Source: a virus. Taken from it: 29,344 nucleotides of DNA. The translations under genes were made by a program, and so were the position numbers. Below, one piece after another: positions 14,645 through 28,134 of this stretch (its first letter is position 1; each line of letters opens with the position of its first letter). A model generated the notes under the pieces. It saw only the letters and a program-made list of their open reading frames with translations, did not search any database and was not told where the DNA came from. The stretch spans positions 1-29,344 of the IMG/VR virus record IMGVR_UViG_3300006919_000287; one strand, written 5' to 3'.

Positions 14645-15160
14645 TTATCTCTTTGTAGTAAAATCTAATAAATCGTCTATGTCTAATCCAAAGTTTTTTA
14701 TTAAGTCATCTGGTAATTTCTTGAATGCTTGCTCAAAAGGTTTAGTAAAAAACAAAGAGGGTTTTATCCCTTTCTCATATATGCTCCTCTGTAATATAAA
14801 TCCTATGCTTCTGTAATTACCTTTCTTATATCTCCCTTTCTCATCTCTCAGTCTGATCCTCTTTGCTTTTGCCCAATCTGCTAGTGGTTGCATTGGAGGT
14901 TTCTTATTAGTGTAACTGTAAGGTGTATTGTATTTCATTTTAATACCTGATACCCCTTTATCCACAAATGCACCATACTCTTCCATTATGAATCCTAAAG
15001 AGAAAGAGTTAGGCATTACCTTTAAATCGTAATCTAAGCTATTATAGAGACTGCTAGAGACATTCTTTTTGTTTTTTGATAGTCTACTCCTAGATTGTTG
15101 TATAACGAACTTAGCGAACGTATTTAAGGCTCTATTTGTATTTTGTAATTTAGCAGACAT
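14645..15160 (-). CDS. HK97 gp10-like neck/tail completion protein, 171 aa
   Basis: The gene encodes a basic protein whose order of motifs fits the gp10-like family: a helical N-terminus, then FIMEEYGAFVDKGVSG, a stretch PMQPLADWAKAKRIRLRD, and near the end IYEKGIKPSLFFTKPFEQAF. The YG..VDkG and kPS.Ff..a pieces are the family's core. Such proteins join the completed head to the tail. It overlaps the upstream gene by 11 bases. Confidence 0.65.
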   Translation of the reverse strand: MSAKLQNTNRALNTFAKFVIQQSRSRLSKNKKNVSSSLYNSLDYDLKVMPNSFSLGFIMEEYGAFVDKGVSGIKMKYNTPYSYTNKKPPMQPLADWAKAKRIRLRDEKGRYKKGNYRSIGFILQRSIYEKGIKPSLFFTKPFEQAFKKLPDDLIKNFGLDIDDLLDFTTKR

Positions 15161-15620
15161 TAATATCGTTTTGAATTATTACATCAAACGTAGCGGTCCA
15201 CCCTGCGACCTGATTCTCAAATCTATCCATAAAAGGCTCTAGAGTAACATCTCCTAACACCTGATATAAGTCTCTATGTAATTGACCAATTCTTAGTTTC
15301 TGTACTAACTTATTTAAAACTGCTAATTGAGTATTCAATACATCTTGCTCATTGTCATTTCCTAAGAATATATCAGATACCGGATCCTTTGATTGATCTA
15401 CAATATCCATTGCTAGAATACTGATATTAAATCCAAGTGTATTCTCTGAGGATGTTACATTGTTTACAATCATATGAGACAAAGGGAATATAGTCTGCTT
15501 ATTAAGATCCACCTCTGTAATATCTCCTGTCGTAACTGTATTTACGTTTAGATCAGATAGCAAAGTGTCTTTTATCTTTTCAGTGAGTAAATAAAACCCT
15601 CTTATTCCTGTATTGCTCAT
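15150..15620 (-). CDS. Probable tail terminator/tail completion protein, 156 aa
   Basis: The layout (a long N-terminal helix IRGFYLLTEKIKDTLLSDL, then strands around FPLSHMIVNNV and LGFNISILAMDIV, a helix QLAVLNKLVQKL and a last strand GWTATFDVIIQ) resembles the alpha/beta fold of tail terminator proteins. These cap the tail tube and meet the neck. The ATG at 15620 overlaps the stop of the -1 frame of the upstream chaperone gene (TAATG), which ties its translation to the frameshift product. Confidence 0.55.
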   Translation of the reverse strand: MSNTGIRGFYLLTEKIKDTLLSDLNVNTVTTGDITEVDLNKQTIFPLSHMIVNNVTSSENTLGFNISILAMDIVDQSKDPVSDIFLGNDNEQDVLNTQLAVLNKLVQKLRIGQLHRDLYQVLGDVTLEPFMDRFENQVAGWTATFDVIIQNDINVC

Positions 15621-15871
15621 TATAGTTTGTTTTTAATCTTTCTGCTTTCTAATTCGTTTTTCTCCTTTTCAAATGCTAACATCATAAAACACTCGTGTAC
15701 ATTTAGTTTAGTGATATTCTCAAATCGTCTAATATCGCCCTGAGCGAGTGCGTAAATTGATTGATACCAACCCCATTTTGCTCCGAACTGAGATATTGCA
15801 CTAAATTGCTCTCCTGATTCTCCTCCAAATAATTCATCATAGCTTGCGATAAGTCGATCCCTAAATGGTAA
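15620..15871 (-). CDS. -1 frame extension of tail assembly chaperone (gpGT-like)
   Basis: Downstream of the T9 run the -1 frame is open for 83 codons to TAA at 15620-15622. It codes for FGAKWGWYQSIYALAQGDIR, then FENITKLNVHECFMMLAFEK and a Lys/Glu-rich end. The KWGWY...LAxGDI...VTKL pattern is typical of second-domain tail chaperones in Bacteroidota phages (from memory). There is no usable ATG near its start, so it must be reached by frameshifting. If ribosomes slip at the T run the fusion would have 244 residues (161 + 83). It would bind the tape measure during tail assembly, like lambda gpGT. Confidence 0.75.
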   Translation of the reverse strand, partial: LPFRDRLIASYDELFGGESGEQFSAISQFGAKWGWYQSIYALAQGDIRRFENITKLNVHECFMMLAFEKEKNELESRKIKNKL

Positions 15872-16353
15872 AAAAAAAGTATAGAACCTATTACTGCATC
15901 TAAAGGCATATCTTTCATTGTCTCTCCATCTCCTGCTTCATACTCTTTAATAGAATATTTCTCTCCGTATTTCTGATCAATAGGTCTATATAGAACTGCC
16001 ATTGCTCTGTGCATATTCTCCCAATCTCCTAAGAACGCATCTAGATCTACATACTCTCCTAAGCTGATGTCATCGAGTTTTGGTATAAATCCATACTCTA
16101 CCCCATTAATTTTAAAATGTCTCCTTAGATTCGGTTTCTCATTAAACATACCTATCAGGATCTCACATATAGCATTAACATCTGCAAACTTCATTCTCAT
16201 AGTATCTGCTAAAGTAACATTGCAAAATATTTCGATCATCTTAGATGCTAGGAATTTCTCATCTGTAACCTCTTCTGAGATCTTTAAATACTTTTGGTAC
16301 TGCTCTAATGTAATCTCTGATAATGTATCAGGTATGGTAATTTCTAGTTTCAT
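15703..16353 (-). CDS. Tail assembly chaperone, 0-frame product (gpG-like), 216 aa
   Basis: Starts MKLEITIPDTLSEITLEQYQ and continues with helical segments, including INGVEYGFIPKLDDISLGEY and a Met/Leu-rich part up to ILFFYHLGIDL. This matches the first chaperone of siphovirus tail modules: right size, right place before the tail proteins, and it carries a frameshift signal. The 0 frame continues 55 codons after the slip site and ends at TAA 15703-15705. The alternative frame gives a second product (15620-15871). A candidate promoter motif (16370-16399) and a terminator lie upstream, so this is the first gene of the tail unit. Confidence 0.7.
   Translation of the reverse strand: MKLEITIPDTLSEITLEQYQKYLKISEEVTDEKFLASKMIEIFCNVTLADTMRMKFADVNAICEILIGMFNEKPNLRRHFKINGVEYGFIPKLDDISLGEYVDLDAFLGDWENMHRAMAVLYRPIDQKYGEKYSIKEYEAGDGETMKDMPLDAVIGSILFFYHLGIDLSQAMMNYLEENQESNLVQYLSSEQNGVGINQFTHSLRAILDDLRISLN
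15870..15879 (-). other. Frameshift site: C followed by nine T
   Basis: The minus strand reads CTT TTT TTT TAC in the 0 frame. Slipping back one base on TTT-TTT gives TTA CCA and enters the open -1 frame. A T9 run could also act by polymerase slippage, since one extra T has the same effect. In the first 20 bases downstream I see no obvious strong stem or pseudoknot. Confidence 0.65.
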
Positions 16354-16369
16354 ATGCTTGGTATTATAT

Positions 16370-16399
16370 ATATAACGTAATTTTTAAGGCATTTTAGTA
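16370..16399 (-). promoter_or_regulatory. ACGTTATAT motif, candidate late promoter 4
   Basis: On the minus strand TACTAAA (16399-16393), 14 bases, then ACGTTATAT (16378-16370). It lies between the terminator at 16407-16435 and the tail chaperone ATG at 16353. Here the distance to the ATG is longer (16 bases) than at the other sites, which fits a transcription signal better than a translation signal. Confidence 0.55.
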
Positions 16400-22955: not shown

Positions 22956-23215
22956 AATTTACTTTTTATTTCTATCTCACATCCTCTAAATGGCATCTCG
23001 TACCATATATTACTTTCCTTTAATAAAGCCTCTATTCTCAATATATCCACCTCATCAAATACAAGTACCCTTTCTACTATCTTAATCTCAGGAGGTTCAG
23101 GCTTTTGATATTTCATTGCCCTTGCTCTTGCTGCTTCTTTTTTAATTTTATATTTATCTGCTATCTCCTGAGGTGTCAATCCTGTTTTAAAATAATCATA
23201 TTGTAAGTCTGTCAT
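22952..23215 (-). CDS. Small helix-turn-helix protein, 87 aa
   Basis: Residues 5-36 (YDYFKTGLTPQEIADKYKIK, then KEAARARAMKY) form a helix-turn-helix of the type seen in sigma region 4 and small regulators. The second half is a beta-alpha unit (IVERVLVFDEVDILRIEALL) with WYEMPFRGCEIEI. It may regulate phage genes or aid another DNA enzyme. No operator can be assigned. Confidence 0.55.
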   Translation of the reverse strand: MTDLQYDYFKTGLTPQEIADKYKIKKEAARARAMKYQKPEPPEIKIVERVLVFDEVDILRIEALLKESNIWYEMPFRGCEIEIKSKL

Positions 23216-23523
23216 AATCCTAGATTCTTTTTAATTTCTAACTCTTTAATCTTTTCCTCTAATTCCTCTATTCTCTCATCAGCTTTCCTTGCTCTCTCTA
23301 CTGCTCTCACCTTATCAGCTAAACTCTCAGAGATAATCCTATCAAAAGAGAATCTCTCATCCTCTAGTGCTTGAATGTATCTTAATTGTCTAAATAAAGC
23401 ATCCTCAAAAGCCTTTAATTCTTTACTATCAGATTTCTTTGTCCACTTCAATATAAGAGACAATAGCATCTGCATATCTGAATTGTTCTGTAACTCTAAT
23501 AAATTGCGATCTACTTTATACAT
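23212..23523 (-). CDS. Coiled-coil hypothetical protein, 103 aa
   Basis: The C-terminal 45 residues (RAVERARKADERIEELEEK and on) form a clear coiled coil. The N-terminus is a helical cap (LLELQNNSDMQMLLSLILKW). It has the early leader AAGACAGATG, and 48 A/T-rich bases separate it from the DUF3310 gene, so a promoter could lie there. I found no match to the host consensus. Confidence 0.6.
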   Translation of the reverse strand: MYKVDRNLLELQNNSDMQMLLSLILKWTKKSDSKELKAFEDALFRQLRYIQALEDERFSFDRIISESLADKVRAVERARKADERIEELEEKIKELEIKKNLGL

Positions 23524-23571
23524 CTGTCTTAATTTTGTATAAAGATATTAAAAATATTTAATTATAATAAT

Positions 23572-23829
23572 TTATTTTGTAGAATTTTCAAACCATTTAG
23601 GTTCTCTAAAATCCTGAACTTCTTTATTCCTTAGATCTCTAACGTATTGGATCTCTCTCTCTATATAATCTTTAGCTTTTAAAAGATCTTGTAACTCATC
23701 GTCTTTCTTGCCTGCTCTTGCTATGTACTTTACTACATTGCCTCTGTTAAAATTTAACTTGTAATCCTGTACAAAGTCGATCACATCATAGTCTCCTGTT
23801 GATTCGTAGTGCATTGCGTTACCCCTCAT
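23572..23829 (-). CDS. DUF3310 family protein, 85 aa
   Basis: The order MHYESTGDYDVIDFV, then NFNRGNVVKYIARAGKKDD and LLKAKDYIEREI is the DUF3310 core, a short helical domain that in some phages is fused to nucleotide kinases and nucleotide-binding enzymes. A role in nucleotide supply is often assumed but not proven. Translation may begin at Met6 (MHYEST) instead of Met1, since the domain opens there. It overlaps the upstream gene by 11 bases. Confidence 0.75.
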   Translation of the reverse strand: MRGNAMHYESTGDYDVIDFVQDYKLNFNRGNVVKYIARAGKKDDELQDLLKAKDYIEREIQYVRDLRNKEVQDFREPKWFENSTK

Positions 23830-24235
23830 TTCTATTAATTATTGCTGCTTGTTCCTCTTTTAATAAGTAAACAATTTTGTTTCTTTTTTTCTTACTCCAT
23901 AAAGTAGTGTCAGGACAATATAATTCTTTTGTCTCTGTTAATTCAATGTCATTTAGCCAAAACATATAATTTGCTTTTGGATCATTCACAAAATACAGTT
24001 TGACTATATCCTGATCCATACTCATCAATTTATCGTATTTTAGTTTTTCTAACATCTTAGTCTCATAATATTTTTTCCTGAACTTCATTTCCATTACGCA
24101 AGGTTTGCCTTTTGGAGTTAATCCCTTTGCATCGTAATGTTCGTACCCATCTCCTGACCATTCAAGTTGCCAACCGTCTAAATTCAATATCTTAACTACT
24201 GCCTGTTCAAGTTCGTGTACTTTATTTATGGTCAT
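23819..24235 (-). CDS. Candidate PD-(D/E)XK nuclease, 138 aa
   Basis: The segment YEHYDAKGLTPKGKPCVMEM followed by KFRKKYYETKMLEKLKYDKL contains Asp35 and Glu49-x-Lys51 spaced like a PD-(D/E)XK active site, followed by a long helix. The rest is alpha/beta (DIVKLYFVNDPKANYMFWL). In flavobacterial phages similar proteins lie among replication genes. A Holliday-junction or VRR-type nuclease role is possible. The gene is separate from the DUF3799 exonuclease. Confidence 0.5.
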   Translation of the reverse strand: MTINKVHELEQAVVKILNLDGWQLEWSGDGYEHYDAKGLTPKGKPCVMEMKFRKKYYETKMLEKLKYDKLMSMDQDIVKLYFVNDPKANYMFWLNDIELTETKELYCPDTTLWSKKKRNKIVYLLKEEQAAIINRNEG

Positions 24236-27903: not shown

Positions 27904-28134
27904 TTAATATCCGTCCTGATGTTGTATAAGTAATTTACCTGTCTCTAGATCTAAGTCTTTAATTGCTTTGTATATTACCCTACTCTTTTTTTTTACCTCT
28001 AGTTTCTCAGCTTTAGTACTATCAGATCCTAGATTAGTGTACATAGTAGCATCAGCCTCTAGTAATTCATTAATTCTCTGTATTACAGTTTTGTTATAAT
28101 CTTCTGCTATTTTATAAATTTCATCTTTTGTCAT
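27904..28134 (-). CDS. Hypothetical protein, 76 aa
   Basis: Helical protein (DEIYKIAEDYNKTVIQRINE, then LEVKKKSRVIYKAIKDLDLE) with a short end. No domain recognised. It is the first gene after the A/T-rich gap and 7 bases before the NinG-like gene, so the two form the start of the early unit. Confidence 0.6.
   Translation of the reverse strand: MTKDEIYKIAEDYNKTVIQRINELLEADATMYTNLGSDSTKAEKLEVKKKSRVIYKAIKDLDLETGKLLIQHQDGY

Follow-up and report, generated by a model that had tools for sequence, protein, structure and literature searches.

The locus considered here raises the question of whether one phage gene carrying a run of nine T's specifies one protein or two and, if two, whether it is the ribosome or the RNA polymerase that slips on the run. 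It lies on the minus strand of IMG/VR virus record IMGVR_UViG_3300006919_000287, positions 1 to 29,344 of which were analysed (the whole 29,344-nucleotide stretch is hereafter called the window), and the initial annotation described it as a tail assembly chaperone gene with a -1 frameshift. That the gene is recoded to the -1 frame at this run is almost certain, and it is very probable that this single gene gives rise to two nested products by the shift, most likely tail chaperones made in a set ratio.

Anatomy of the gene at the slip site

The features of the locus, all on the minus strand where a strand is given, are as follows.
15703..16353, minus strand: 0-frame ORF encoding the short product of 216 aa, from an ATG at 16353 to a TAA ending at 15703
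15879..16353, minus strand: N-terminal domain common to both predicted products, mixed alpha/beta in the AlphaFold2 model
15870..15878, minus strand: T9 run, the slip site, as read from the sequence and from T9 or T10 in the distinct junctions of relatives
15871..15877, minus strand: slippery heptamer T_TTT_TTT, in register, as read from the sequence
15620..15877, minus strand: -1 frame domain of 85 aa (KWGWY...GDI...TKL) without a start of its own, as read from the sequence and from relatives
15703..15876, minus strand: dual-coded stretch, in which the 57-codon 0-frame tail and its stop lie over the -1 domain
15150..15620, minus strand: next gene, matching phrog_30964 (unknown function), its start overlapping the -1 stop

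On the coding strand the slip site reads ATA CTT TTT TTT TAC, that is, C-T9-A at 15879-15869. The -1 frame is open for 85 codons including two TTT codons, or 83 after them, up to a TAA at 15622-15620 that overlaps the ATG of the next gene at 15620 to form TAATG. The first Met of the -1 domain is residue 64, and a start codon giving an ORF of at least 60 aa was looked for in this frame of the window and not found. The 0-frame tail past the run comprises 57 codons when the two Phe residues (FF) are counted and 55 without them. The initial annotation held up on re-reading in the end of the 0 frame at 15703, the coordinates of the run, the 83-codon -1 frame without its own start, the overlap with the next gene, the 55-codon tail over the -1 domain and the 244 residues (161 + 83) counted for a fusion protein.

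Normal decoding of this gene would yield the short protein of 216 aa, and a share of decoding would slip on the T9 run, continue in the -1 frame and yield a protein of 244 aa, whose first 161 residues are those of the short product and are followed by a different C-terminal domain with the KWGWY motif. The slip itself could be a re-pairing of the ribosome on U_UUU_UUU, or the addition of a U (or the loss of two) by the RNA polymerase.

A ACGTTATATA-like stretch at window positions 16354-16385, shortly upstream of the start codon, also occurs in many relatives and may be a promoter. The minus-strand genes between 1546 and 18915 of the window follow an unusual order, with terminase genes, the chaperone-like gene, tail-type genes and a tape-measure-like ORF, after which come a protease, a capsid candidate, a tail-tube candidate and a portal gene.

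Conservation of the T run among relatives

When IMG/VR was first scanned, with the -1 domain of 85 aa as query, 265 relatives were found and 80 of them kept; in all of these the T run was unbroken, the 0-frame tail came to exactly 57 codons and the -1 domain measured 84-88 residues. The set was widened by alignment-based scans and by scans with the 0-frame homologue and the -1 domain of the cultured phage P12024S, and all scans together located about 430 loci, from which 157 distinct junctions were drawn, each sharing <85% identity with the others over 320 nt. The run is T9 in 134 and T10 in 23 of these, in five classes of start and length. The forms include NTT TTT TTT TAY and ATT TTT TTT TTG TGG as well as AGT TTT TTT TTG CGA (locus L329) and GTT TTT TTT TTC TAT (locus L422). 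Where the register is the usual one, FF is followed by Y, W, C, S or L, and the codon of this residue always has T as its first base; T_TTT_TTT is present in register in every class, and conservation of the -1 domain starts at the codon directly after the run. Runs shorter than nine T's, T8 included, and indel variants were absent from the 157 junctions, which come from scans that select loci by conserved peptides, some covering the FF residues, and with degenerate DNA patterns that should admit TTC. Further scans for alternative slippery sequences in distant relatives returned runs of at least nine in every case. Across 457 kb of ORFs elsewhere in these phages, the eight slip-site ORFs being left out, a run of nine or more T's was seen once against 9.2 expected from synonymous shuffling; given this scarcity and a run of T9 or T10 at every one of the 157 distinct junctions, the T9 at the slip site is not due to chance.

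A natural single-frame fusion was not found among 218 relative loci. Three BFVD proteins of 243-258 aa (A0A516L611, A0A6J7WJY4 and A0A6J5MY57) match the model of the short product, and against the model of the -1 domain A0A516L611 also matches, the other two doing so weakly; as judged from these model comparisons, they may be single-frame fusions in more distant phages. The gene is also found on three MAG contigs titled Flavobacteriaceae, Winogradskyella and Bacteroidetes, which may be binned phage DNA.

Homologues in cultured Nonlabens phages

The Nonlabens phages P12024S and P12024L (Inhavirus), whose recorded host is Persicivirga sp. IMCC12024, carry a homologue (P12024S_38; 36% protein identity) directly after the large terminase gene. 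Both have C-T9-A at the same place and keep both frames, the -1 frame with KW.WY. In their annotation the two frames are separate hypothetical proteins, P12024S_39 beginning at an internal ATG; the T9 junction and the homology indicate that P12024S genes 38 and 39 (L219:9001-9695; positions 23136-23830 of the record) are one recoded gene. A tblastn search of INPHARED with the -1 domain returned no relatives, and it was a search with the 0-frame product that led to the P12024 homologue. Flavobacterium phage 6H (L284:10044-10939) has a 191-aa ORF that may correspond to R9VW65, a weak fold relative, by its length only, and whose frame ends near TTTTTTC with open frames following; it looks disrupted, and recoding and a sequencing error are both possible there.

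Homopolymers are error-prone and most of the relatives are metagenomic contigs, so that a sequencing error or a broken gene had to be considered. However, the run is T9 or T10 in the 157 distinct junctions and is present in two cultured phages, and both frames are conserved, which reduces the probability of this explanation to a negligible level; homologues of the -1 frame number in the hundreds, and the T8 or indel variants that an error might have been expected to leave do not appear. A separate gene with its own start in the -1 frame might be suggested by the annotation of P12024S_39 from an internal ATG, but it is very improbable in view of the conservation that begins at the slip codon and of the missing start for at least 60 aa in this frame of the window. 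The recoding and the dual-coded overlap put forward by the initial annotation are thus backed by the relative loci, by their distinct junctions and by a cultured phage.

Dual coding downstream of the run

The overlap of the two frames was analysed in 76 representatives whose -1 domains are <85% identical. In these sequences the 0 frame is open for 54-81 codons past the run; when the codons of the -1 frame were resampled synonymously, it stayed open for 54 codons in 2.8% of cases on average and in 14% at most for any single sequence. Counts of 0-frame stops by region are partly circular, since the overlap is set by its first stop, and the resampling was relied on instead. The tail reaches 86 codons in some relatives outside the P12024 branch, and it measures 27 codons in P12024S and 18-27 across P12024 and its nearest relatives.

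The excess of codon identity over codon usage, uncorrected for shared ancestry, amounts to 1.0 for the pair of TTT codons, to 0.72 in columns 2-9 and to 0.24-0.35 up to column 60, with 0.05, 0.23 and 0.33 in later blocks, and past about column 10 it does not exceed the values reached in parts of the sequence that follows the 0-frame stop. Within columns 2-9, TTTAGG is read as Leu-Gly in the 0 frame and as Phe-Arg in the -1 frame, and the 0-frame consensus after the slip is FfyxLGxxLs. By these codon comparisons, strong constraint on both frames is clear over about the first ten codons and limited to them, and the remaining 0-frame tail is kept open without clear selection on its sequence.

Identity of the predicted products

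The 0-frame product matches phrog_32199 (E 7e-25), a family of unknown function, and weak matches to phrog_166 ('tail protein') occur in 22 of 62 relatives, the best at 3e-5. Searches of Pfam and NCBIfam gave no match to any known tail chaperone. The AlphaFold2 model of the short product (mean pLDDT 79.6, pTM 0.69) has block means of 79-93 up to residue 170, and most of its last 24 residues fall below 50. In BFVD it matches the P12024S homologue and proteins of uncultured phages and, weakly (E 0.027), a protein annotated as a tail assembly chaperone; a fold search of the PDB with it returned nothing significant. The -1 domain is modelled as helical (mean pLDDT 74.3, pTM 0.48). In a profile search, one of the checks proposed in the initial annotation, the domain had no Pfam match, and PHROG matches among its relatives were scattered and weak.

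The gene lies downstream of terminase genes including TerL, and a tape-measure-like ORF (9473-7791) follows with four genes between; this ORF was named from the appearance of its sequence, its phrog_32985 match being of unknown function. The tail-tube candidate (4282-3767) is located elsewhere, and both the tail-tube and the tape-measure candidates are without a profile assignment. The two frames overlap, and a shift close to the end of the 0 frame would join them, an anatomy of the lambda G/GT type. From the initial annotation, the frameshift anatomy stands, and the name tail assembly chaperone draws on gene context and on the weak phrog_166 and fold matches; it is the best reading of the gene and a likely one. 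On the model of lambda G/GT, the two products most likely serve as chaperones of tail assembly, made in a set ratio, and the shared part would bind the tape measure protein and the -1 domain would recruit tail tube subunits.

Ribosomal or transcriptional slippage

To our knowledge, all tail-chaperone frameshifts tested so far are ribosomal. Ribosomal -1 frameshifting on U_UUU_UUU could by itself account for the shift, with the extra T's coming from constraints on the flanking amino acids: the heptamer is perfect and in register in every junction class, and the flanks are mostly hydrophobic (V, L, I or F before the run, Leu or Phe in the -1 frame after it) and supply T's. A ribosomal shift is the established mechanism for lambda-type tail chaperones (PMC5009743), and P2-like phages use T6G, T7G or T7C sites that are described as ribosomal (PMC3931495). 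However, no T7 or T8 is found here, although TTC at the second Phe would be doubly synonymous and makes up ~24% of the Phe codons in these genes; where a TTC or TTG codon does occur, the run is still 9-10 long and has moved upstream, and the codon after FF always begins with T while its residue varies. Ribosomal slippage alone is a real possibility, at somewhat less than an even chance.

Slippage of the RNA polymerase on the homopolymer alone, which the initial annotation raised as well, would explain why the run has at least nine T's even where its register shifts. In a large share of bacteria, selection against such runs, read as avoidance of slippage, sets in at a length of nine (PMC1088944). 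Away from the slip site, in the remaining ORFs of the phages compared, T7, T8 and T>=9 stand at 0.48, 0.19 and 0.11 of the synonymous-shuffle expectation, and the depletion of T7 is about equal in all three codon registers; A runs drop sharply only at nine or more (A>=9 at 0.17 of expectation). An A9 run is itself present on the coding strand at 27986-27994 of the window, inside a small ORF (28134-27904). Depletion of T runs irrespective of frame fits a cost in transcription or replication better than a ribosomal cost, although mutation bias or terminator-like effects could contribute to it. A stimulatory RNA structure was sought in ten stretches downstream of the run, pseudoknots excluded, and none clearly exceeded its shuffles (z +1.7 to -0.7). 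On the other side, the ribosomal heptamer is also always present, and no description of transcriptional slippage in tail chaperones was found in the literature searched, which was covered in part. Polymerase slippage alone comes close to an even chance, and the two mechanisms are weighted about equally, the polymerase being slightly favoured; as constraints on the amino acids can account for some of the extra T's, the mechanism is not called. It is tentatively proposed, at somewhat less than an even chance, that polymerase slippage on the invariant T9/T10 run, and not ribosomal frameshifting, sets the tail-chaperone ratio throughout a family of Flavobacteria phages, the short product having a C-terminal tail of its own that lies over the alternative domain and is selected to stay open.

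Significance and comparison with known systems

Frameshifting in tail chaperones has long been known; the novelty here lies in the family, in a T run that is both long and invariant, and in the extent of the overlap that is kept open. The principle of tail-chaperone recoding is extended to a large and mostly uncultured group of Bacteroidota phages, in which the predicted fusion has been missed by annotation even in cultured isolates. The locus offers a clean natural test of whether a shift on a homopolymer is made by the ribosome or by the polymerase, and it is an example of a second frame that stays open for as many as 86 codons.

As in lambda G/GT, a short and a -1 extended product would be made from one gene in the tail gene region, the role of the pair here being assigned by likeness. 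The slippery heptamer in lambda is GGGAAAG, a mixed sequence, whereas the gene here has a T9 or T10 run; dual coding extends over 18-86 codons as against an annotated G/T overlap of 19 nt in lambda, and lambda G/GT has no detectable sequence match to this gene. The P2 E/E+E' genes and those of P2-like phages resemble it in the T-run slip site, the -1 direction and the location in tail genes, but their sites vary in length and last base (PMC3931495) and the run here never falls below nine T's; P2 E' reaches 37 nt back into E, less than the overlap described here. Thermus dnaX (A9) and IS elements (PMC1088944) share a homopolymer of at least nine that is avoided elsewhere in coding DNA, although they are transcriptional slippage genes of another type and the present gene is known from its sequence alone. 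P12024S 38/39 is a direct homologue, its T9 lying at the corresponding position and its -1 domain showing KW.WY, and it differs in its 27-codon 0-frame tail and in being annotated as two genes.
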